Shown here one piece after another: positions 1 through 55,893 of a stretch of DNA of 64,000 nt (position 1 is the stretch's first letter; every line of letters starts with the position of its first letter). The DNA comes from Fidelibacterota bacterium. GTDB taxonomy: Bacteria > Fidelibacterota > Marinisomatia > SCGC-AAA003-L08 > TS1B11. The stretch is from the NCBI GenBank assembly GCA_020354025.1, contig CP070638.1, forward strand, positions 657,999 to 721,998, in the 5' to 3' direction. The notes below the pieces were generated by a model. The model was given only the letters and a program-made list of their open reading frames with translations, searched no databases and had not been told where the DNA came from. Both the position numbers and the translations under genes were made by a program.

Positions 1-32
1 GTGCTGCCGAGGTCAACTGTGAGGTCTGCCAT
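1..32 (-). CDS. pyrD: Dihydroorotate dehydrogenase, N-terminal fragment (partial)
   Basis: Only the first ten codons are present, beginning with ATG at 32 and reading MADLTVDLGS before the window edge. This resembles the start of class 1B dihydroorotate dehydrogenases, and the gene lies 5 bases after the pyrK stop, the usual partner arrangement. The class 1B catalytic subunit oxidises dihydroorotate to orotate in pyrimidine synthesis and passes electrons to PyrK. The call rests mainly on context; the flavin and active-site regions lie outside the window. Confidence 0.65.
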   Translation of the reverse strand, partial: MADLTVDLGS

Positions 33-37
33 GGGGA

Positions 38-853
38 TCATGCCAGTTCGTGGGCCCAGAAGACCGGTCCATCAACGCAGGCCAGTTTAAAATGATTCCG
101 GTAGCTTGGCAGCGAGTGACTTTCATCGGTTTTCAGCTCTACGCTGCATCCCTGGCAGATGCCAAAACCACAAGCCATCAGTGTCTCAGTGGCCAGCTGG
201 CACGGGAGTCCCCGCTCCAGGACAAAGTCCTTGAGGGCGCTAAGCATAGTAGGCGGCCCGCAGCCGAAAAGGGTGATCTGGCCGGTGCTGGACTGATCCA
301 GCACCTTCAGGAGACCGTCCATTACCGTGCCGTGCATTCCGACGGTGCCATCCTCGGTAGTCAGTGTGATATTATTCCCGGGATCGTGATTGAGATAATG
401 GTCATCCTTGCCGCGCGTTCCCATCAGCAGGTAGTGATCACGGCCGTGACTGATCAGTTCCTCGTGCAGGAAGCTGATGGGAGCAATCCCTGCGCCGCCG
501 CCAACCAGGACGGGAAAAGTATCATCAGCGACGCTCCAGCCATTCCCCAGTGGCCCCAGCAAATTCACAACCTGCCCCGGGGGCCATTCAGTCATTGCCC
601 GGGTGCCGCTGCCAACAACTTTATATATCAATCCGATGCGGTCAGCCTTTCGGGATGCCACACTCATGGGACGCCGCAGAAGAGGAGACCATCCCTCACT
701 GATCAGTATGTTGACGAACTGGCCTGGATTAACTGTTGCGGCAATCGCAGGGGCAGCCAGTTCCATCGCATAAGTCTCCCGCGCCAGTCGGCTGTTCGAA
801 ATCAGCTTGCACTCTTCGATTACCATGGTTCTGCTGAGGCTATCGGGCAGCAT
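38..853 (-). CDS. pyrK: Dihydroorotate dehydrogenase electron transfer subunit
   Basis: This 271-residue protein carries electrons from dihydroorotate dehydrogenase B to NAD+ in de novo pyrimidine synthesis. Visible motifs are the FAD-binding RRPMS (residues 60-64), a glycine-rich nucleotide loop GGGAGIAP (118-125), CGPPTM (198-203) and a C-terminal 2Fe-2S cysteine set at 228, 233, 236 and 259, spaced C-x4-C-x2-C-x22-C. The last spacer is somewhat longer than common in PyrK, but the order is right. The start is ATG at 853. It follows the TPR lipoprotein gene by 36 bases and precedes pyrD, so it is probably co-transcribed with both. The pyrD adjacency makes PyrK far more likely than another ferredoxin reductase-like protein. 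Confidence 0.93.
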   Translation of the reverse strand: MLPDSLSRTMVIEECKLISNSRLARETYAMELAAPAIAATVNPGQFVNILISEGWSPLLRRPMSVASRKADRIGLIYKVVGSGTRAMTEWPPGQVVNLLGPLGNGWSVADDTFPVLVGGGAGIAPISFLHEELISHGRDHYLLMGTRGKDDHYLNHDPGNNITLTTEDGTVGMHGTVMDGLLKVLDQSSTGQITLFGCGPPTMLSALKDFVLERGLPCQLATETLMACGFGICQGCSVELKTDESHSLPSYRNHFKLACVDGPVFWAHELA

Positions 854-3408: not shown

Positions 3409-4618
3409 GGATATTTCCGTTGTCCAGGTGGATGATTGTGTCACAGAAAAGGGTTAAAAAGTTACGGTCATGAGTTATAATTACCAATGGCTTTGCCTCC
3501 AGGTCACCGGTTAACTGCGTCAGGAATTCGGCCACACCCTGGATCGGCAGGCCATAAGTGGGTTCATCTAAGATCACCAGATCGTATTTCCCTGATAGTA
3601 GTGCAGCAATAGTGAGTAACCGATAGCCGATACTGGCGTCCAGTTCAGCCAGTGTTTGGTAGGAACGGAGTTCCGGGAGTATATTTTTCAGATACTCTGC
3701 CTGACCGTCGGTGAGACGCCCCTGATTGGCAAATCGTTGGATAATGTCGCCAGTGTTGAGTCCCTGGGTTGATGCTTCTGTCTGCTGTACCAAGTAGCCC
3801 AAGCAGGGGATATCAACGCCCGGCAGCTCCACTTTTAGAAGTCCATCATAGGGCGACAACTTAGCGAGGCAGTCGGCGAGGGTGGATTTCCCCGATCCAT
3901 TATCCCCAGTGATGCCTAGACAGCGAACCTGGTTCAGAATGAGCTGCGGTATCCGGAGGGTAAAATCGGTGTCGCAAAATTGTTTTACAACTTCCTGCGC
4001 CACCAGCCGCCAGGGTTTTATGGCTTCCGCCCAGTCTGGTGCCTCGACATCGAGCCGAACGGACGGAAGGGATATTAAGCGTTCCTCATTTAGCCTCCAT
4101 GTGTGCTGCCCCAATCCCGGCCCTCGATGTCGATAGCTAATCTCCAGCATCCGCTTGCCATGAGTTTTCAGAAGATCATGTATTCTTTGAATATTCCGGG
4201 AACTCAGGAAATCAAAGCAGTGCTGCCCGATAAGGAACTCAGATGGTTGCTGGAGGGCAGCAGTAATCGCCAACTGTTGTTGCTCGCCACCCGACAGGGT
4301 TGTCGGAACTTGATCCATACGCTCCGAAAAAGGGCCCTGCTGGATGATTTGGTCCACCTCCAGGTTCAATTGTCCATTGGTAAGACCTTGATTTTCCAAA
4401 TCAAATGCAATCTCACGACGAACCGTATCAGCCACCAAGTAGCAGGCCATGTTAAAGGGAAAGATAAAGCAACTCCGTTCATGGTGTTCCAGAGTTACCC
4501 GCAAACGTTGTGCTAAATCTATGTTGTCGGGATAGAGATGATAGAGTCCCGGGGGAAGATCCCAGAGAAAACAGCTAGCTACCAAGGATGGCCTGGAGGA
4601 TACGGGCTGAGGCACCAA
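3371..4618 (-). CDS. Fused two-domain ABC ATPase with complementary degenerate halves
   Basis: This protein of up to 415 residues contains two ABC ATPase modules like a fused energy-coupling-factor A1-A2 pair. The first half keeps a signature LSGGEQQQ, but where Walker A should be it reads YPDNIDLAQRL, and its Walker B region (FLIGQHCFDFLSS) lacks the Asp-Glu pair. The second half keeps Walker A (GDNGSGKST), Walker B (YDLVILDEPT) and the H-loop (IITHD), but its signature has decayed to ASIGYR. Joined as an ABC sandwich they would form one complete ATP site and one dead site. The start is uncertain: the earliest is TTG at 4618, overlapping the waaA end. No transmembrane partner is adjacent, so the substrate is unknown. 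Confidence 0.8.
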   Translation of the reverse strand: MVPQPVSSRPSLVASCFLWDLPPGLYHLYPDNIDLAQRLRVTLEHHERSCFIFPFNMACYLVADTVRREIAFDLENQGLTNGQLNLEVDQIIQQGPFSERMDQVPTTLSGGEQQQLAITAALQQPSEFLIGQHCFDFLSSRNIQRIHDLLKTHGKRMLEISYRHRGPGLGQHTWRLNEERLISLPSVRLDVEAPDWAEAIKPWRLVAQEVVKQFCDTDFTLRIPQLILNQVRCLGITGDNGSGKSTLADCLAKLSPYDGLLKVELPGVDIPCLGYLVQQTEASTQGLNTGDIIQRFANQGRLTDGQAEYLKNILPELRSYQTLAELDASIGYRLLTIAALLSGKYDLVILDEPTYGLPIQGVAEFLTQLTGDLEAKPLVIITHDRNFLTLFCDTIIHLDNGNIHEATNGSHIHHK

Positions 4619-41644: not shown

Positions 41645-44326
41645 TTATTTTGGAAGATGTAATATATCACCAATAACTTCAAATCGTCCAGCAATCACCC
41701 CAGTCGTTTGAGCGTCGGCGTTTCCGGTGAAACCAGGCTGCTTGCCACCGACGCTTACTTCGAACATCCCCGGTTCCACAACGCGCTCGTATTCCTGATC
41801 AATCAGAGAAAGCTGCCTGGGTACCAGCGTAAAGCGAACCTTTTTTTTCTGGTCTGGCTTAAGAAATACTCTCATAAATCCCTGCAATGACCGGATGGGA
41901 ACCGGCGCAGAAGCATCCAAATCCTCTAAATATAACTGTACAACTTCCTCACCCGCCATTTCTCCCACATTCCTGACATCCACAGCAACGGTTACATTCT
42001 GATCTGATCTGACCGTTTCAGGAATCTGAAGATTGTCGTATTCGAACCTTGTGTAACTCAGGCCATGCCCGAAAGGATACAGTGGCCTGTCACCAAAATA
42101 CCGGTAGGTCCTGCCTTTCATGTCATAATCATCAAACGGTGGCAATTGGTCAACGGACTGGTAAAACGTGACCGGAAGCCTTCCGGCTGGATTATAATCT
42201 CCGAAGAGCACATCGGCGATAGCTGTGCCAGCGGCCTGGCCTGGATACCACGCCTCAATGATGGCGGGGACCTGCCGGTCCGCCCAATTTACCGCAACCG
42301 CACTCCCGTTCAGGAGGACCAGGACAACCGGTACGCCAAGTTCGTATATAGTTTCAATCAGTTCTTCCTGTACCCTGGGCAGTTTCAAATTAAGCCGGTC
42401 ACCACCTTCGAAACCTTCCACCTCCACTTTCATCTCTTCACCTTCCAGGCGCGGCGAAAGCCCCATCACCATGATCACAGCATTCGCTTTATCAGCAATT
42501 TGCACCGCCTCTTTCACGAGATCACGCCCGGGAGGAGCCCAGAGCAGTCGAATATGAGCGTCACCCTGCACTTCGTAGAACTCGACCTCGATTTTGTATG
42601 ATCGACCCGCTTCCAGATTTACGTTCTCGTAGGTAGTTCGCGGATGATGTCTGCTCTGAAAACTGATCAAGAGGGAGTCTTCCAGAGCGATACGAAAACC
42701 GGAAAAACCGTTAGCGCCCAGAGCGTAGGTGCCCGAAACCGGGGGCACCAGCTCTCCAGTCCACCGAACGCCGAAATTGTCGTCATCCAGATCTTTTTTA
42801 GGAGCCCCGTCCCACCAGTTGAAATCGATCTGCTTGTCGATCCTGGTAAATACCGGATCCCCCTTAAAATTCCGGTTGTCAAAGTACTCGGCTTTCAGAC
42901 CATTCCGTTTCTTGCTGCCTTTTGTGGTATAAAGAGCCGAAGAAGGGACTACTTCAAAAGATGGGAGGTTCGCAGCGTGCCTACAACCCTGCGCATAGAG
43001 TACTTCCGTTTTTGAAGACACCTTTTCCCGAATCCCCTGGAGAGGGGTAACGGGACTGGTGGGATTGCCATTATAATTACCCAGAAGGACTTCCACATCA
43101 TCGGCATTAGGTCCGATCACCGCAATGGTGCTGATATCTTTCTCAAGGGGCAGGAGGCTATATTCATTTTTAAGCAGGACAATCGATTTACGGGTTGTCT
43201 CCAGGGCCAGTTTCCGGTGTTTTCGGCTATCGTTCACCTTATTTGGTATACTGGCATAGGGTACCTTTTCAGGAGGATCGAACATGCCAAGTTTAAACCT
43301 GGCCCTAAACAGGCGTTTCAAGGAAACATCAATTTCTTCTTCGGTGATCAGTCCTTCTTCAACCGCTTGCAGCAGGTTCTCGTACTGCTGGCCGCAATTG
43401 AGGTCGCATCCCGATTTGACGCCCAGCGCAGCCGCTTCCGATGATGTTTCAACAACCTGGTGATAACGGTATATATCTCTAATAGCCCCGCAGTCGGAAA
43501 CGACGTAGCCTTCAAAGCCCCACTCATCCCGCAGGATGGTGTTAAGGAGCTGACTGCTCCCGCAGCAAGCCTCACCCAGGTACCGGTTGTACGCACACAT
43601 CACCGAAAAAGCATTGGCTTCTTTGATACAAGCCCGAAAATGCGGCAGGTAGGTTTCCCGCAAGTCGCGCTCATCGGTAACAGCATCGAAGGTGTGCCGG
43701 TCCGGCTCAGGACCACTGTGCACAACGTAATGCTTCGGCGTCGCAACAGTCTTCAGATAACGTGAATCATCGCCCTGCAGTCCTTTAACGAACTGGACAC
43801 CCATCCGTCCTGTGAGATACGGGTCCTCACCGTAGGTCTCCATACCACGTCCCCACCTGGGATCACGGAAAATGTTAATATTAGGTGACCAGAACGTCAG
43901 CCCCTGGTAAATCCCTCTCTTTCCCTTACGAACAAATTCATGATGCTTGGCACGGGCTTCATCGGAGATAGCCGTGGCTACGCGAAACATAAGGTCGGTA
44001 TCCCAGGTAGCCGCCAAGCCGATCGCCTGGGGGAACACGGTTGCTCTTCCAGCCCGTGCCACTCCGTGCAGGGCCTCGTTCCACCAGTTGTACTCCGGCA
44101 CATCCAGACGCTCAATCGCGGCAGCGTCGTTAACCAGCTGTGAAACCTTCTCATCCAGAGTCATCCGCGAAACCAGATCATCCACACGCTCTTCGACGGC
44201 AAGCGTTGGATTTTTATAGGCGGGGGCATCCTGATATTGATCTTTCATACCACAGGAAGTTAATCCGAAAATCAGAAAAACAGCTAGAAGCAGGAAACTA
44301 ATATCTTTAATGATATTACCATTCAT
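41645..44326 (-). CDS. Glycoside hydrolase family 3 lipoprotein with PA14 insert
   Basis: This 893-residue enzyme is a family 3 beta-glycosidase. The lipobox LTSCG (Cys25) anchors it in a membrane. KHY (198-200) and the nucleophile Asp278 in VVSDCGA are in the barrel domain. A PA14 module (about residues 465-600, with GLKAEYFDN and GAPKKDLDDDNFGVRW) is inserted in the second domain, and a fibronectin-III-like C-terminal domain follows. SDCGAI is common in xylosidase/glucosidase GH3s, so beta-xylosidase or beta-glucosidase is favoured; the xylB neighbour favours xylosides. AGGAGGT precedes the ATG. Confidence 0.93.
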   Translation of the reverse strand: MNGNIIKDISFLLLAVFLIFGLTSCGMKDQYQDAPAYKNPTLAVEERVDDLVSRMTLDEKVSQLVNDAAAIERLDVPEYNWWNEALHGVARAGRATVFPQAIGLAATWDTDLMFRVATAISDEARAKHHEFVRKGKRGIYQGLTFWSPNINIFRDPRWGRGMETYGEDPYLTGRMGVQFVKGLQGDDSRYLKTVATPKHYVVHSGPEPDRHTFDAVTDERDLRETYLPHFRACIKEANAFSVMCAYNRYLGEACCGSSQLLNTILRDEWGFEGYVVSDCGAIRDIYRYHQVVETSSEAAALGVKSGCDLNCGQQYENLLQAVEEGLITEEEIDVSLKRLFRARFKLGMFDPPEKVPYASIPNKVNDSRKHRKLALETTRKSIVLLKNEYSLLPLEKDISTIAVIGPNADDVEVLLGNYNGNPTSPVTPLQGIREKVSSKTEVLYAQGCRHAANLPSFEVVPSSALYTTKGSKKRNGLKAEYFDNRNFKGDPVFTRIDKQIDFNWWDGAPKKDLDDDNFGVRWTGELVPPVSGTYALGANGFSGFRIALEDSLLISFQSRHHPRTTYENVNLEAGRSYKIEVEFYEVQGDAHIRLLWAPPGRDLVKEAVQIADKANAVIMVMGLSPRLEGEEMKVEVEGFEGGDRLNLKLPRVQEELIETIYELGVPVVLVLLNGSAVAVNWADRQVPAIIEAWYPGQAAGTAIADVLFGDYNPAGRLPVTFYQSVDQLPPFDDYDMKGRTYRYFGDRPLYPFGHGLSYTRFEYDNLQIPETVRSDQNVTVAVDVRNVGEMAGEEVVQLYLEDLDASAPVPIRSLQGFMRVFLKPDQKKKVRFTLVPRQLSLIDQEYERVVEPGMFEVSVGGKQPGFTGNADAQTTGVIAGRFEVIGDILHLPK

Positions 44327-48801: not shown

Positions 48802-51800
48802 CTACTTCAGCAGCACCAGCTTGACATGTTTGGTATATCCGCTAGCCGGCTGACCGGTTACCATGCGCAGGATATACACGCCAGTAGGGACCTCCTTGCC
48901 TAAGGCGGTCCGCCCGTTCCAAACAACCTGGTGATAGCCTGGTTCAACATATCCATCACGCAGACGAATCACCTCCCGCCCGAGGATGTCATAAATAACC
49001 AGGGACAGATTGGTGGCAGCCGGCACATCAAACCTCACGGTGGTTGTAGGATTGAAGGGATTGGGGTAGTTCTGGTGCAGAGCGAACGCCTCCGGCAAGT
49101 CAGATATCCCCGCCGCCATTGCCAAGGCCGCGTTGTTCACTGAGTAGCCACTGTCAACCTCCGAGAAGGCGTAAACCTCGGGGTATACCGTATAGGCGGC
49201 AATCTTGACGTATACCCAATTCATACCCGTCTCGTTTGAGTCTTCAGGGACCGGAACCTGAAGGGAATACAAGGAATCTCTCGTCGCTTCGATGATATCT
49301 ATTACCGTCCACCCCTCAAGAGTATCTGCATCTACCACCGGTTCAGACGAAGCAGCCACCTCATACAGCATGCCAGTGATTATATCCTGCAGGCCTGCTG
49401 GGTTGTCAGTCGTTAACGGATCAAACGTTACTTGTGCAGGCGATTCATGCGGCTGTTTCACCATGAGTTCATCTATCATCGCTTTGCTGCCAGAACGCTG
49501 GTCGTGCACCAGCGGAGTGGCGCTAGTTGCTGCCTCCGGAGCCACGGATGATATACCGTCCTCGGGCTCCGGGGACATCGCCTTCGCCAGAACGCTCGGG
49601 CTAGACGCCACCGCAGCCGTTGTGTCCTTCAACCATACGCGGTATGATGTTACGGGAGTTGCACTGGAATCATTATCATCAGCGGAAGCCAGCCAGGTAA
49701 CATCCACCCAGCCTCCCCCATCTTCAGGCACATCCTCAATAGCGGTGATTTGCGGCGGGCTGATCTCCGGGAATAAGACCTTCAAGTATGCCTTTCTGGT
49801 TGCGATGGGATTATCTGGATCGGTACCGGTTATCACAATTTCAGCGGCGTAATCACCAACAGCCATACTCCTGGCATCGAACTTGACTTCAATATCTGAT
49901 GACGAACCGGCCGGGATAACACCACTTTCCGGGCTTAGCTTCAACCAAGAGGGAACCGCGTCAACAGGTTGCCCCACATCAGCAACTGATCGGGTCCTGA
50001 CCGAATTTTTCAAATTAGCCAGAGATCCATTGATCTTGGCAGTCGCAACAGCGATCTGGTCAACTGAAATCCTGAAAGCCAGCTCACTGCCTCCGGCGGT
50101 GTTGTCGATGGTCAGGATCTGAACGGAGGTATCCAAGAACGACAGCTCCACTCCCAAAGAATCTGGCGTGATCACCATTATCGGTGGCTCCAGGCATTGG
50201 CCCACAAGTGGTATCGTCAGGACGGATTCGTCAGGATCGTCGCTGACAATAGTCAACGAGGCATTAAAGGCACCGAGATCGGGAGGAGTGAAGGTTACGA
50301 GTACGCCTTGACTCGCACTGGGGCTAAGGACAAAGGAGGTCGTGTCCACGGTATAAGCGTTATTGTTGGTTGAGATGCTACTCACCGTAAGGACTTGGCT
50401 GCCGGGATTAGAGATATCCAGGGATATGGTTTTAGTCCCTTCGGGGAAGACAACGCCATAATCAAGAGTGTCACTGGAGATAGCAATGTCGGCTTCATCC
50501 CACACCTGGAGAGTTGTGGGAACCCGGATAACCGGATTGACCGGATCGTTGCTGCTGATCACAATATCGGTAGAATAGTCACCGGTCGAGAGGTTCTCTG
50601 CCCGAAAGACAACGCCAATTTGTGCACTGCTTCCGGCAGGTACCAGACCGCTGACATCGCTCAGGCTCAACCAGGATTCGTCAAATTGATACGAGATGTT
50701 TCCCATGCCGATATCAGGTACAGAATCCCACCAATCCCAGCCATCGGCATCAAAAACCAGGATGGCGAAGTTGATCGCGGAGCTAGCTCCGAGGTGATGC
50801 CTAGACATACCCAGGACCAACTCGAATCCATCCGAACCAGCAAAGGCAGTTGATAGAGAATCAAGTAGAATCCAATCATACTCATCCCCTCCCAGGTAAA
50901 CAAGCTGGCCTACAACGTTTAAGCCCAAGTATGGAGAGTATTCGATCCAATAATTCGTTCCCAGCAGCCAGTCAATATCGGGATAGCCAGTGGAAGTATT
51001 CTGATCTGCATCAATAATAATAATTACATCCTCGGTTCCAGTAATTGGTGTATAACTATCCATCTTAAAGAGCAGCTCATCACTACTATGGGCCGCATAT
51101 ACATGTTGAATATCATATGGCCAACTCCCTTCATTCGGGTCCGTATACAGCCACTGCCAATTGACGTTGGGCAGGTCTCCTTGGGGGGTGGACGCGGTGA
51201 TAGTACCCTGCATACCACTTGATAGGAGCTCCTCATTTAGCGTACGAACCAGCTCAGCGGAGAGACCTTGATACTGCGTCCCATCAATGTGTACCACCGG
51301 TTCTCCTTCGGCTAGGGAAGCGGAGGAAACTCCGGCAGGGGCTGCTATTTCCATATCAAAGATCAGGTCACTCCCGCCAGCACTGTTGTCGATAGTCAGA
51401 TACTGGACGGATGAATCCCCCGCAAACAAATCCTCACTCAGCGAATCTGGCGATACCACAATCACCGGGGGAGATGCACCCTGTCCCAACAAGACCACCG
51501 CGACGGCAGGTTCATCGGGATCGTCGCTGGTGATAGTCAAGATACCAGGGAAATTGCCGACACTGGCGGGTTCGAAGATAACGGTCACTGCCTGACTTTC
51601 ACTCAGACTTACGCTGAAGGTCGTGAGATCTATAGTATAGGCAGAATTGGTTGATACGATACTGCTGACAGTCAGTAAATCGGTACCCGAATTGGACACC
51701 GTCAGGGTCAGGGAATCGGAGCCCCCAATAAAGACCGCACCATAATCCAGAGTATCGTTGGAAACGGTGATGTCCGGCGTGCCGGTTACGCTCAGGTGCG

Positions 51801-54800
51801 CCGGCACCCGGATTTCGGGGGTGACCGGGTCATTGCCGGCAACTACGATATCTGCATCATAATCACCACCATTCAAACCTGTAGCATTGAAGGCAACTTC
51901 GATATCCATTGATGAACCTGCCGGAATCGTACCTGATGAAGGAGAGTACGAGAGCCAGAGTGAATCAACTCCCGGCACTTTTAATTGATAAATCAGGTTA
52001 GTAGACCAATCAACACACCATAAAAATGGCCACCCCTGCGAAACATTATCCCATGCCAATCCAGTTGGATACGTCCCTGGAGCATCAAATGTTTGAACGA
52101 TATTGCCATCGTCAGGCGATAATATGTAAATGAAATCGTTGTCCCCAGAAAAGTCTGAATTGGAATGCCACAGGTTTGGTCCTCCTTGAGAATTGGAATC
52201 CCATGCTAAACCTGCTGGCCAATCAATCGGAGTATCAAAGGAGAACAGAACGTTCCCATTTACAGGATCTAATTGATATATTTTGTTATTATTTGATCCA
52301 ACACACCACAAATTTGAGCCATCCCATGCGAGGTCCCTTGGCCAAATGTCGGGTGCTGTAAATGAATCTATTACTTGAAAATCTGATACCCTTATTTTAT
52401 AAATGATATCAGTTTCTTCATCAGAATTCCATAGATAAGGACCACCAGGTGAATCATCGTCCCAAGCCAAGCCAATAGGGAAAGTACCAGGAGCAGAAAA
52501 GGAAGAGATGACAGTACCGCCAGCAGGATCAATTTGATAGATATAGTCACTCGTTGAGGCACAAGACACCCACAAATATCCATTACCCCATGTCAAACCG
52601 CGGCAACCTCCCGATGGAGCAGAAAAAGAGTCCACAATGATTAACGTAGAGTCTACAAGAAGAGACAGGCTTCCATTTATTATGGGCAAAGATTTATTAG
52701 AAGGATCCTGCTCTACTTGTGTATTGCTGGTTTCTACTGGATAACAAAGTATGGCCCTCTCACTTTCCGTCATATCCTCAACTTCAATAGAGTTCTGGTC
52801 GGTGGAGGAAATATTCTCAAATTGAATAGGATTAACATAAAGTGGAAGCTTATCAGAGCTAGCAGAATATATAGAATTACCTTCTGTATGAGTGATTGAA
52901 AAATTCAAATCACCATTACCATCGTTGGAAATCGTAAGGTGTTGAATAGATGTCTCGCCTATAAACAAATCTTCACTCAACGAATCCTGAGATACTGAAA
53001 TCACCGGGGGAGATGCACCCTGTCCCAACAAGACTACCGTAACGGTAGGTTCATCGGGATCATCGCTGGTGATACTCAAGGTACCAGGGAAATCGCCAAC
53101 ACTGGCGGGTTCGAAGATGACAGTCACTGCCTGACTTTCACCCGGACTTAAGCCAAAGGCCGTGAGATCCTTGGTATAGGCGGGATTAGTCGATACAATA
53201 CTGCTAATCGTCAGCAAATCGGCACCCGAATTGGACACCACAAGGGTCAGGGTATCGGAGAGCCCAATAAAAACCGTACCGTAATCCAGGGTATCGCTGG
53301 AAACGGTGATGTCGGGCACGTCCGCAGTTACATGCAGGGTGGCAGGGATCCGCACTTCCGGATTGACCGGATCGTTGCTGGACACCATAATATCAGCGGC
53401 GTAATCACCACCGTATAAATCAGTGGCATCGAAGGTCACCAGGATATCAAGTGAATTGCCTGGAGCCAGTATGCCGGATTCCGGCTGTAAAGCTAGCCAC
53501 CGAATGCCCGGTTTCTCGATCGTATCACCGCAAAATCCATCGAAACATCTGATAGCGATACCAGCTGGTTGGAAGCCCGACAAAGTGGCTGAAATTGTAT
53601 TCAGCAATGTGGTACCATCTGAGGCATACAAGCGGCCGGTAACCTGCTCACCACCATCAAAGGTGACTTCCATTCTATACCACACATCAGCCGTCCAAAC
53701 CTGCGAAACCGATGCAACATCGTAGTAGCTATATCCGGAATTCTGCTGGATGATCAGTTCACCCGTATTCGGCGCCATGATAAGTGACCAGCACCCCGAG
53801 GCGTCGGCACCAAATCCCAGGTAAAAGCGGCCCTCGTTCGAGTTATCCGGCTTCACCCATATCGACAGCTGGTCACCGGCATCGCCCAGTAATACATCAG
53901 TCTGATAATACCAATCCAGCTTATAACTATATCCACCATCAGTGATCCCATAAGATCCATCGTGAGCACAAGCGGAGATTGTCGATCCACCACCAATGTC
54001 GGCTGATATCCACGGAGACCAGGGCCAAGTACCGGTTTCAAAATCTTCTATGATCCAATAGGATGCAGCTGTGGTAGTATGTGAACGGCTATTCTGCACT
54101 TTATCGGACGATGCAAATCCTTCATTTTCCCATCCGAAGTTTCCCCGTGAAGTAGAAGACAATCTATTATAGGTCGCCTCATTGATACCATTCGCCTCCC
54201 ATACTGAGATCTGGCTGCCGGCTGAGCTTCCTTGAGCAAGCACATCGCTGAACCCGCTGGGTGGCTTAGTATAATCGTTTGTTAAGGGCTGCGTCGGAGA
54301 AACAGCGCTGGCAGATACCTGTTCAGCGAGAATACTGAAAGCGAGACTACCGCCACCCACATTACTTAGAGTAATCGTTTTAACGGTCGTATCTCCCGCG
54401 AACAGGTCGGCGTGAAGCGAATCAGGTGTCACGCCGATGACAGGGGAGTTGACCTCGAAATCGGCCGTCATGGTGCTGGCAGAGCCAGAGATATTGCGGA
54501 CGGCGACGTAGGTCTGGTTATCACTGTAGTCCTGACTGCCGGGTGTGCTAAAACTATCGAAGGTAAGATTGGCAGTTGTGCCGGGATAGGGATCACCGCC
54601 GTCGCCCTGGCTGCTGATATTCTGTTCAAGGTCCCACAAGCCGTCGGCTTGCTCCAGGGCCACACGGTAGTGGCCGTAGTCAGTATAGCCGGGATACCAC
54701 TCATTGTCGTTCTGGGAGGTGACCGATTGATCCACGTGATAGATGAGCAGCCCGCTGCCGGGCAGGGCGGCGTCGTAGCCAAGCTGTTGCCGGTTTTCCA

Positions 54801-55893
54801 CCAGGAAGTACTGATCACCGATGACCCCGTTGGTCCAGAGGCGGTAGACTTCGGGATAGGTTTCTACATTGGCAACAGCCTGTCCTGTAACCTCGACTGA
54901 GATATTCGTTGGGGTCACATAGCCCATCTGATAGTGGCACCAAGCATCGGGCAAGGCGGGACTGTCCCCCAGGTTGCCGTTCCAGCTACCGCTGGCCATC
55001 ACGCTCCAGCTGCCCAAACCGTTGGAGGTGTAGTCCCTATCATACAGGTCCGGCAGGCCGAAGGCGGCGTGCCCCATTTCGTGGGCATAGACACCGACGG
55101 TCATGTCTTCGCCAGGATCAAATACATCATCCTCATCAATGTCCCAGTATTCCGGCTCCATGGAATAGTGGAAGATCGTAACACCGTCTAAAACAGGGGG
55201 ATTATATGTCTCCCACGCATGCGACCATATATCATAATCACTACCGGTGAATTCGGCACCCGGTCCCGCGTGAACCACAAATAGGGCATCCACGAAGTTG
55301 TCCAGGTCATTGTCATATTGAGAGAAATCCACAACTCCGTCCACTGCCACCACCACATCCTCGACCAGTTTTTGGGCGTTCTGCGGATAAGTGCCCATGC
55401 CATTCAGCGCGTTTACATAATACGCATAGGTCTGAGGGGCGCGGTTCCATCCGGTAACGCTGGGCAGGTGTACGGTCACCACGTCCAGGTTACCGTAGCT
55501 AACCTGCTGGAAATAGTCTCGCATGGTACCGGGACTATTATTAAAAACCAAGCTATCGAAGAAAGCGGCCTCCACCTGCTGGATGTTGTCTGAGAAGTCC
55601 ACCATCAGCACAAGGGCGTTGTAGCTGCCCATAGGAACGGCTGCGGGCCCCAACGATCGAGTGGCTTCCGACAGATCCGTTACCCGCCGGGCCAGAACTT
55701 CCGACGCGGCCCAGGGAGCATTTATGCCCCGTGCCCGTAGCTCATCAAGATGTTGGAGATAGTATGGCTCGGCGATCTGCCCAGCAGCTATCATCTGACG
55801 GACGCGGGAATGAGGCGGTATTGAGCCATCAGCAATATCCCCCATCGCAACGAATACGGCCAATAGTAGTGTGATTCGGTAAATACTTCTCAT
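48802..55893 (-). CDS. Giant secreted M6-like metalloprotease with repeated framework and type IX-like sorting domain
   Basis: This 2363-residue protein has a signal peptide, an immune-inhibitor-A-like metalloprotease (about residues 60-470) with HEMGH at 271-275 and a downstream FGLPDLYD supplying the third ligand, then several copies of a beta-sandwich/choice-of-anchor D framework, and a sorting domain with NYPNPFNP, YDILGREVIRL and KLVLLK. Between framework halves lie different inserts: a LamG-like domain (about 600-800), a five-blade propeller-like region (about 1075-1305) and a DOMON-like domain (about 1600-1740). HEMGHAAFGLPD has one residue more than the usual HExxHxxGxxD spacing. GGAAGG precedes ATG 55893. 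An extracellular protein-degrading role is predicted. Confidence 0.92.
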   Translation of the reverse strand: MRSIYRITLLLAVFVAMGDIADGSIPPHSRVRQMIAAGQIAEPYYLQHLDELRARGINAPWAASEVLARRVTDLSEATRSLGPAAVPMGSYNALVLMVDFSDNIQQVEAAFFDSLVFNNSPGTMRDYFQQVSYGNLDVVTVHLPSVTGWNRAPQTYAYYVNALNGMGTYPQNAQKLVEDVVVAVDGVVDFSQYDNDLDNFVDALFVVHAGPGAEFTGSDYDIWSHAWETYNPPVLDGVTIFHYSMEPEYWDIDEDDVFDPGEDMTVGVYAHEMGHAAFGLPDLYDRDYTSNGLGSWSVMASGSWNGNLGDSPALPDAWCHYQMGYVTPTNISVEVTGQAVANVETYPEVYRLWTNGVIGDQYFLVENRQQLGYDAALPGSGLLIYHVDQSVTSQNDNEWYPGYTDYGHYRVALEQADGLWDLEQNISSQGDGGDPYPGTTANLTFDSFSTPGSQDYSDNQTYVAVRNISGSASTMTADFEVNSPVIGVTPDSLHADLFAGDTTVKTITLSNVGGGSLAFSILAEQVSASAVSPTQPLTNDYTKPPSGFSDVLAQGSSAGSQISVWEANGINEATYNRLSSTSRGNFGWENEGFASSDKVQNSRSHTTTAASYWIIEDFETGTWPWSPWISADIGGGSTISACAHDGSYGITDGGYSYKLDWYYQTDVLLGDAGDQLSIWVKPDNSNEGRFYLGFGADASGCWSLIMAPNTGELIIQQNSGYSYYDVASVSQVWTADVWYRMEVTFDGGEQVTGRLYASDGTTLLNTISATLSGFQPAGIAIRCFDGFCGDTIEKPGIRWLALQPESGILAPGNSLDILVTFDATDLYGGDYAADIMVSSNDPVNPEVRIPATLHVTADVPDITVSSDTLDYGTVFIGLSDTLTLVVSNSGADLLTISSIVSTNPAYTKDLTAFGLSPGESQAVTVIFEPASVGDFPGTLSITSDDPDEPTVTVVLLGQGASPPVISVSQDSLSEDLFIGETSIQHLTISNDGNGDLNFSITHTEGNSIYSASSDKLPLYVNPIQFENISSTDQNSIEVEDMTESERAILCYPVETSNTQVEQDPSNKSLPIINGSLSLLVDSTLIIVDSFSAPSGGCRGLTWGNGYLWVSCASTSDYIYQIDPAGGTVISSFSAPGTFPIGLAWDDDSPGGPYLWNSDEETDIIYKIRVSDFQVIDSFTAPDIWPRDLAWDGSNLWCVGSNNNKIYQLDPVNGNVLFSFDTPIDWPAGLAWDSNSQGGPNLWHSNSDFSGDNDFIYILSPDDGNIVQTFDAPGTYPTGLAWDNVSQGWPFLWCVDWSTNLIYQLKVPGVDSLWLSYSPSSGTIPAGSSMDIEVAFNATGLNGGDYDADIVVAGNDPVTPEIRVPAHLSVTGTPDITVSNDTLDYGAVFIGGSDSLTLTVSNSGTDLLTVSSIVSTNSAYTIDLTTFSVSLSESQAVTVIFEPASVGNFPGILTITSDDPDEPAVAVVLLGQGASPPVIVVSPDSLSEDLFAGDSSVQYLTIDNSAGGSDLIFDMEIAAPAGVSSASLAEGEPVVHIDGTQYQGLSAELVRTLNEELLSSGMQGTITASTPQGDLPNVNWQWLYTDPNEGSWPYDIQHVYAAHSSDELLFKMDSYTPITGTEDVIIIIDADQNTSTGYPDIDWLLGTNYWIEYSPYLGLNVVGQLVYLGGDEYDWILLDSLSTAFAGSDGFELVLGMSRHHLGASSAINFAILVFDADGWDWWDSVPDIGMGNISYQFDESWLSLSDVSGLVPAGSSAQIGVVFRAENLSTGDYSTDIVISSNDPVNPVIRVPTTLQVWDEADIAISSDTLDYGVVFPEGTKTISLDISNPGSQVLTVSSISTNNNAYTVDTTSFVLSPSASQGVLVTFTPPDLGAFNASLTIVSDDPDESVLTIPLVGQCLEPPIMVITPDSLGVELSFLDTSVQILTIDNTAGGSELAFRISVDQIAVATAKINGSLANLKNSVRTRSVADVGQPVDAVPSWLKLSPESGVIPAGSSSDIEVKFDARSMAVGDYAAEIVITGTDPDNPIATRKAYLKVLFPEISPPQITAIEDVPEDGGGWVDVTWLASADDNDSSATPVTSYRVWLKDTTAAVASSPSVLAKAMSPEPEDGISSVAPEAATSATPLVHDQRSGSKAMIDELMVKQPHESPAQVTFDPLTTDNPAGLQDIITGMLYEVAASSEPVVDADTLEGWTVIDIIEATRDSLYSLQVPVPEDSNETGMNWVYVKIAAYTVYPEVYAFSEVDSGYSVNNAALAMAAGISDLPEAFALHQNYPNPFNPTTTVRFDVPAATNLSLVIYDILGREVIRLRDGYVEPGYHQVVWNGRTALGKEVPTGVYILRMVTGQPASGYTKHVKLVLLK
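51430..51850 (-). repeat. Direct repeat in protease gene, copy B
   Basis: This stretch encodes the choice-of-anchor D module that follows the propeller insert. It is very similar in DNA to 52969-53389, offset by exactly 1539 bases (513 codons): the matching ATCACCGGGGGAGATGCACC starts at 51461 and 53000. The copies share long identical runs with scattered changes. Confidence 0.88.
51980..52900 (-). other. AT-rich beta-propeller-like insert in the protease gene
   Basis: Residues about 1000-1305 include five repeats of the form GLAWD...LW...IYQLD, each about 45-50 residues, with SFSAPG starting the blades. The DNA is clearly richer in A and T than the framework modules on both sides, and the 52700-52900 linker is especially so. 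This suggests that the insert came from another source or is under different codon pressure. Confidence 0.7.
52969..53389 (-). repeat. Direct repeat in protease gene, copy A
   Basis: This encodes the first choice-of-anchor D module after the LamG-like insert and matches 51430-51850 at a constant offset of 1539 bases. The periodicity equals one framework unit plus its insert, consistent with segmental duplication followed by replacement of inserts. Confidence 0.88.

Follow-up and report, generated by a model that had tools for sequence, protein, structure and literature searches.

Split ASH/PapD-like domains with diverse inserts in the stalk of a putative type IX-secreted M6 protease of a Fidelibacterota bacterium

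The closest described idea to the architecture reported here is the split immunoglobulin (Ig)-like domain of RTX adhesins such as AhLap of Aeromonas hydrophila (PMC12077191) and FrhA of Vibrio cholerae (PMC10865825). In the sections of these two papers used here, such adhesins are type I-secreted proteins with few split domains, which present modules with adjacent termini sideways, and the FrhA split domain is opened after a single first strand of ~12 residues (PMC10865825). Domain insertion of the A1-B-A2 kind has been surveyed by Schaeffer et al. (2026; PMC13114784), and in the parts of that survey used here the insert is the smaller partner in 77 % of events (medians of 115 residues for inserts and 199 for hosts) and close termini are typical, while distant termini would need long, potentially destabilizing linkers; the terms immunoglobulin, PapD, BACON and HYDIN are absent from its main text. 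Here we describe a gene in a 64 000 nt stretch of a Fidelibacterota genome (GenBank assembly GCA_020354025.1, contig CP070638.1, positions 657 999 to 721 998; hereafter the window). It lies at window positions 48802-55893 on the minus strand, as do all of its features given below, and its product is probably a type IX-secreted M6 protease with a stalk of intact spacer domains (D) and split sockets, each composed of an A half and a B half, whose inserted modules get replaced over evolution.

So far as these sources go, the likeness to the RTX adhesins lies in a discontinuous Ig-like domain around an inserted module, although homology of the frames is not established. Unlike those of the adhesins, the frame described here is predicted to be ASH/PapD-like, is opened after the fourth predicted strand, is repeated up to seven times and occurs in peptidase proteins; type IX secretion is likely, the inserts fall into ~30 classes that include enzymes, and they have a one-sided tether. 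No RTX family is among the Pfam matches listed for the window protein, which has a type IX tail instead, and the RTX split-domain construct 9CSE is found neither among the 14 chains to which the B-half profile gives a match nor among the best 50 structural matches. With the cases in the parts of the Schaeffer et al. survey used here the architecture shares the interruption of one domain by another, but its inserts exceed the host (median 237.5 residues including the tether, versus ~104) and its linker is one-sided, and we suggest that the tether may relax the close-termini requirement reported there for inserted domains. What is new here is the fold family of the frame, the likely use of type IX secretion, the variety of fillings, the occurrence of sockets in tandem on several families of peptidase, and the tether. 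Among titles and abstract openings on nested or inserted BACON or ASH domains or on type IX split domains, none was found that describes this system of D and A-B frame.

The M6 protease gene is a single open reading frame (ORF) of 2363 aa with an ATG start, and it sits unbroken on one 3.4-Mb contig. Residues 1-480 (54454..55893) comprise a putative signal region and an M6-type metallopeptidase domain, matched over its cut-off by TIGR03296 (E 3.3e-58) and, in a profile search of the organism's own genome, by PF05547; the HExxH motif of the predicted peptidase reads HEMGH in the translation. At the other end, a region with Fn3/Ig-like and low-complexity character (residues 2040-2263; 49105..49776), for which all Pfam matches are weak and sub-threshold, precedes a type IX type A sorting tail (residues 2264-2363; 48805..49104) that scores 29.2 bits with TIGR04183 (cut-off 23) and 18.1 bits with the corresponding Pfam model (under its cut-off of 27). 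The genome also encodes SprA (707.8 bits, cut-off 200). From these matches the protein is likely to be an M6 metalloprotease that uses type IX secretion. Together with the long SprA-like ORF, the many other ORFs that end in close relatives of the tail (for example G000:C1:1757824, 2985719 and 487938) suggest wide use of type IX secretion in this Fidelibacterota genome.

The stalk contains four copies of one domain of ~104 residues, each split into an A half of ~44 aa and a B half of ~60 aa, in the order A-insert-B-D three times and then A-33 aa-B. Half-versus-half comparison places the A and B halves of unit 1 at residues 483-524 (54322..54447) and 797-855 (53329..53505), those of unit 2 at 961-1005 (52879..53013) and 1310-1369 (51787..51966), those of unit 3 at 1474-1519 (51337..51474) and 1738-1797 (50503..50682), and those of unit 4 at 1902-1946 (50056..50190) and 1980-2039 (49777..49956), with units 2 and 3 also covered by AlphaFold2 (AF2) models. 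The intact spacers are D1 (856-960; 53014..53328), a choice-of-anchor D or HYDIN-like Ig domain (NF012200, 56.0 bits, cut-off 45; PF22544, 50.4 bits, cut-off 25.5), and, by sequence comparison, D2 (1370-1473; 51475..51786), which is 79 % identical to D1, and D3 (1798-1901; 50191..50502). Copies of the A half are 39-58 % identical to one another and those of the B half 47-57 %, and none of 300 shuffles reached the score of any of the 12 half-versus-half comparisons. Among the inserts, by contrast, five of the six pairs score no better than shuffled sequence (the score is attained by 70-273 of 300 shuffles), the sixth being insert 2 against the 33 aa insert 4 (9 of 300). The first-pass annotation, made from the sequence alone, had described a recurring two-half unit with the same split point and different inserts between like halves, and both descriptions hold. 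To these can be added the intact, related domain D that alternates with the split units, along which joined A and B halves align end to end, and a repeat at the DNA level whose unit is B-D-A. Nucleotides 2440-2931 of the coding sequence (most of B1, D1 and the start of A2; 52963..53454) are 80.7 % identical to nucleotides 3982-4470 (most of B2, D2 and the start of A3; 51424..51912).

This architecture is real and widespread. Matches to B-half profiles were found in 8 of 11 genomes of the family (1e-6), 19 of 41 of the order (1e-8) and 48 of 245 of the phylum (1e-14), and one profile scan of named genomes gave 48 loci. In genome stretches fetched and these loci together, calling units at domain E <1e-3 gave 193, of which 189, in 86 proteins, were kept after removal of four duplicates (L038 = L050; L051 = L148). 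The halves are separated by no more than 20 residues in 19 units, by 21-99 in four and by 118-420 aa in 166, a split share that is biased upward because the loci were collected with B-half profiles built from split units. The four intermediate units, among them window unit 4, hold only a stretch of ~34-75 residues with no recognized domain. Insert-bearing units span 10 phyla, namely Fidelibacterota, Calditrichota, Ignavibacteriota, Krumholzibacteriota, Latescibacterota and Bacteroidota, together with single or few records from Acidobacteriota, Actinomycetota, Chloroflexota and Pseudomonadota; many of the records are metagenome-assembled genomes (MAGs). The longest arrays have seven (L052) and six (L061) insert units. 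Spacer D matches the choice-of-anchor D family (NF012200) and, unlike the frame, has never been seen opened: of 144 hits, 139 extend without a break over 80 model positions or more, none has an internal insertion of more than 20 residues, and the A-B frames, unlike D, score under the NF012200 cut-off.

The two halves are predicted to fold as one domain. AF2 was run on unit 3 with an alignment of fragments from the window and the named loci, uninterrupted relatives included, and confidence was read from the predicted local distance difference test (pLDDT) only; it is 97-98 over nearly all of both halves, and in a model of unit 2 the frame reaches 96-98. When 100-105 residues drawn from both ends of the unit 3 model (model range 1..324) are compared with solved structures they superpose on single ASH/PapD-like domains, the best VIA match being 9ijj_P, from the central apparatus of mouse (Z 13.6, 105 residues aligned, root-mean-square deviation 2.1), with HYDIN (7sqc_F0, Z 13.4), CEP192 (6fvi, Z 12.8) and a Porphyromonas protein of unknown function (2qsv, Z 12.5) among further matches. 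Uninterrupted A-B domains match BACON_2 (PF19190) or PF22544 nearly end to end; of five compared with the curated cut-offs, four pass one or the other and the fifth scores 24.7 against 25. The frame is like these families in that most of the uninterrupted members compared exceed a Pfam cut-off, and unlike them in that most units are found opened by an insert longer than the domain itself. In the window, unit 4 gives 21.3 bits (cut-off 25.5) and half B2 exceeds the PF22544 cut-off with 30.9 bits. Three points tell against so simple a picture: the Foldseek alignment of the whole unit 3 model is poor (TM ~0.15 in most top rows), the pLDDT of its insert is mostly <50, and the presence of uninterrupted relatives in the alignments means that closure of A on B was guided by them and is not independent. 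An arrangement in which A and B belong to separate domains, the apparent insert being simply the next domain in the chain, has nothing in its favour apart from the sequence distance between the halves; it is contradicted by the 19 of 189 units that are uninterrupted, by the superposition of both halves on one solved domain and by the alignment of the joined halves to D, and we regard it as extremely improbable. In the models, then, both halves form one ASH/PapD-like (BACON_2/HYDIN-type) beta-sandwich, opened after its fourth predicted strand, in agreement with the single frame supposed at first.

The fillings are diverse. The 166 inserts form 37 sequence clusters, or 30 after profile-profile merging, these counts depending on the thresholds used (phmmer 1e-5; hhalign probability >=80 over 60 columns). 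When one representative per cluster was scanned, families over the Pfam cut-off included Peptidase_S8 with a fervidolysin-like prodomain, Peptidase_M43, Fib_succ_major, Laminin_G_3, Cleaved_Adhesin, LVIVD repeats, Reelin subrepeat, P_proprotein and, in a propeller-like cluster, DUF4394; many representatives have no match over cut-off. Whole predicted peptidases occur as inserts, an S8 subtilase with its prodomain in unit 2 of L107 (420 aa) and M43 peptidases in units 1 and 3 of L099, so that the earlier label of binding domains is too narrow. Cluster 11 is a long glycine-rich inserted module common to five related proteins (L109, L110, L111, L113 and L156). The stalks themselves are attached to various enzymes: among 10 N-terminal regions scanned, seven have a peptidase (three S8, two M6, one C25 and one M36) and the other three have FG-GAP/ASPIC, fn3 or nothing. 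The proposal that the frame is borne on a secreted protease therefore stands for the window protein, with its M6 domain and sorting tail, but four peptidase families are involved and the array is not tied to one protease.

Inserts are joined to the frame asymmetrically. The tether was measured as the unaligned ends of inserts in the 144 units for which a different protein holds a relative, and the median unaligned end is 22 residues on the N side and 2 on the C side; the N side is the longer in 122 of the 144 units, the C side in 13, and there are 9 ties. The first 40 residues are poorer in hydrophobic residues than the last 40 in 128 of 153 inserts, and in 29 of 33 clusters hydrophobic residues set in later on the N side than on the C side, with the reverse in two. 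Exceptions include cluster 14, in which the longer free end is on the C side, and some clusters without any tether.

The inserts of the window protein are 272, 304, 218 and 33 aa long. Insert 1 (525-796; 53506..54321) consists of a tether of ~85 aa followed by a LamG-like domain. Its assignment to LamG, made in the first-pass annotation, finds a match in PF13385 but is not firm, as the score of 24.7 bits is under the Pfam cut-off of 27.6. Among the 41 genomes of the order no relative of this insert was found at 1e-5 except in its own genome (1 of 41), and a suggested kinship with the first insert of L036, an M6 relative, was rejected because its score is at shuffle level (attained by 54 of 200 shuffles). 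Insert 2 (1006-1309; 51967..52878) has an N-side tether of ~80 aa (pLDDT <50) followed by a propeller, as had been proposed. The propeller matches PF21959 (DUF6923) with 35 bits (cut-off 27), and, modelled with pLDDT mostly 65-91 (a stretch at residues 47-129 of the unit 2 model is at low confidence), it resembles glutaminyl cyclases and NHL domains (best VIA match 3mbr, Z 23.1, 214 residues aligned, partly in a low-confidence stretch). By hydrophobic onset this insert has little asymmetry (2 versus 0), but the N-side tether is present in the AF2 model. The propeller also occurs in ORFs without detected frame halves (G002:C1:285081 and G003:C306). Insert 3 (1520-1737; 50683..51336) is a tether followed by a domain of no known family, for which 14 members were collected, all inside sockets; 7 of the 41 genomes of the order have matches, every one in an ORF carrying frame domains. 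No convincing Pfam family was found for it, alone or over the 14 members, and none of these gave a DOMON match at E <=5, so the DOMON assignment first given to it is unsupported as far as profiles go, although its fold may be distantly DOMON-like. An alignment of members from L144, L048, L037 and others (A7) delineates an undescribed domain family, found here only as a socket insert, with invariant W, D and G and an IDADQNxxTG-like motif. The short filling of unit 4 (1947-1979; 49957..50055), noted as such from the start, is a tether-like stretch of 33 aa with no domain by Pfam and sequence comparison. Searches of PDB sequences with whole inserts gave nothing useful.

The fillings differ more than the frame that holds them. 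In a sample of one genome per species, all 32 frame comparisons between the window protein and two close M6 relatives score 128-318 (shuffled ~29), whereas clear kinship is seen in just two of the 32 insert comparisons, one involving the propeller and one the insert 3 family, both at other ordinal positions; further pairs are marginal (attained by 1, 5, 8 and 10 of 200 shuffles). Inserts thus vary among paralogues and relatives while the frame stays, as had been anticipated. Synteny failed as proof that these M6 genes are orthologous, as flanking genes are unmatched within the short loci fetched; since, in addition, the genome of L036 contains a second M6 relative (L040), we term them closest homologues. 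More widely, 40 of 45 proteins with at least two inserts hold at least two classes. At the DNA level, units 2 and 3 of L036 have A halves 90.6 % identical and a 584-nt B-D-A block 87.8 % identical around inserts of different classes, and identity falls at the frame borders on both sides.

A replacement at an orthologous site is seen in L110. This protein matches L109 and L111 at 87-88 % identity in its N- and C-terminal parts and at 88-100 % in unit 1, but its unit 2 holds an insert other than that of these two proteins. This insert is 76 % identical to one in L156, a protein only 53-65 % identical to L110 in units 1 and 3 and in the N- and C-terminal parts, and the closeness of the insert to that of the more distant protein indicates that one lineage was re-plugged. 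Such a change bears on the idea that inserts stay in place and that gene conversion within each protein homogenizes the surrounding frame and spacer DNA. That idea fits the finding that, with classes taken as the 37 clusters, frames at least 60 % identical within a protein share an insert class in only 9 of 23 pairs (those 60-80 % identical mostly hold different inserts) and that between proteins alike frames share inserts; it fits, too, a DNA repeat that centres on D and extends into B and A, and a frame and insert that are partly co-inherited. It accounts poorly for an insert change at an orthologous site where the incoming class is shared with a more distant relative, and for closest M6 homologues whose sets of inserts differ and which carry a shared insert family at other ordinal positions, and we think it unlikely, if by no means negligible.

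Several observations do weigh against free replacement of modules. Between proteins, frames at least 70 % identical share an insert class in 34 of 35 pairs (37 clusters). A tree of the frame, built from 165 of the 166 insert units over ~104 columns and weakly resolved, needs 66 changes of insert class, compared with 115 +/- 3 for shuffled labels and 90 +/- 3 for labels shuffled within proteins, and this deficit indicates that frame and insert often travel together, being partly co-inherited and partly separated; only six disjoint clades with SH-aLRT (approximate likelihood-ratio test) support of at least 95 hold two classes. In L110, moreover, the B half of unit 2 has been replaced too (39 % identity) and the A half in part (73-78 %). 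It may be, then, that whole units (A-insert-B, or insert plus B) are what is normally shuffled and that exchange of the insert alone is rare or apparent; the L110 tract with its B half and the more than chance association of insert class with frame speak for this, as do two actinobacterial contigs of a Micromonosporaceae MAG (L066 and L070; Actinomycetota) with identical B-half DNA, unrelated inserts, divergence beside the insert border and diverged A halves. Since both contigs end inside the B half this is a weaker junction case, and it reflects either an exchange that took place recently or a repeat at which the assembly broke off. Units 2 and 3 of L036 stand against shuffling of whole units, because both halves are kept at ~88-91 % DNA identity round unrelated inserts with the junctions at the borders, and we consider it a real possibility, though a rather doubtful one. 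What survives of the constant frame with swapped inserts in the first-pass annotation is the retention of the frame around differing inserts; the L110 tract that includes a B half, and insert classes that partly follow frame ancestry, qualify it.

Misjoining of repeats in metagenome-assembled genomes might be invoked for the whole pattern, given that the two actinobacterial contigs end inside an identical B half and that in one relative the gene seems to be split over two contigs. The latter is a likely homologue of the window gene (G003:C112 and C224; L047 and L048) that appears to be broken within its frame domains, which is what one would expect if short-read assembly fails at B-D-A repeats. 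But the window gene is in one open frame on a single 3.4-Mb contig, two genomes agree with each other against L110 and a third agrees with L110, and many ORFs of >2000 aa from different phyla show the split pattern, so that an artefact of this kind is hardly credible.

In the reading that we favour, of a secreted protease with a stalk of sockets whose modules are replaced, D spacers and sockets would form a rod from the cell surface, and closure of the halves around the insertion would make the inserted module project sideways from the stalk axis. The flexible N-side tether could let the socket take domains of varied size and geometry, and the modules might keep substrate or a surface close to the protease or supply another activity. 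Replacement over evolution would come about partly by recombination in or beside conserved frame segments, for which the repeated B-D-A blocks are plausible sites. Inserts might instead be neutral bulk added to a structural stalk and not displayed for any function, an explanation consistent with inserts in the window protein that have no recognized ligand or activity, one of them without a family and one without a relative in the order; it seems improbable to us, as inserts are conserved folded families with invariant residues and some belong to recognized peptidase families.

Domain insertion is usually described as selective, with small inserts, close termini and often a fixed partner, and this frame, across 10 phyla, opens at a single site to ~30 unrelated classes, which mostly exceed it in size and have a linker on only one side. 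The RTX split-domain design is thus paralleled in proteins that carry several peptidase families and are probably secreted by a different route. If the pattern is borne out in experiment, it would provide a natural insertion site tolerating many cargoes, useful for protein display, and whatever lies between A and B halves would probably be an independent surface-exposed domain, a rule that predicts modules of unknown function. We suggest tentatively, and with somewhat less than even confidence, that the BACON/ASH-type domain is a general socket of bacterial surface proteins, in which one loop takes almost any domain, whole enzymes included, a long tether on one side makes it unnecessary for the termini to be neighbours, and B-D-A repeats serve as recombination sites that re-plug the stalks of several unrelated secreted peptidases.

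No recombinase family was found among ten neighbouring genes scanned (window positions 41645-63505), which include genes for a transglutaminase-like protein, M20 peptidases, a DcuC-type carrier, an aminotransferase and an amino-acid kinase. Another of the genes in this region (41645-44326, minus strand) encodes a GH3 glycosidase with a nested insertion of its own, a PA14 domain (474-601) lying inside the match to the C-terminal domain (residues 382-758).

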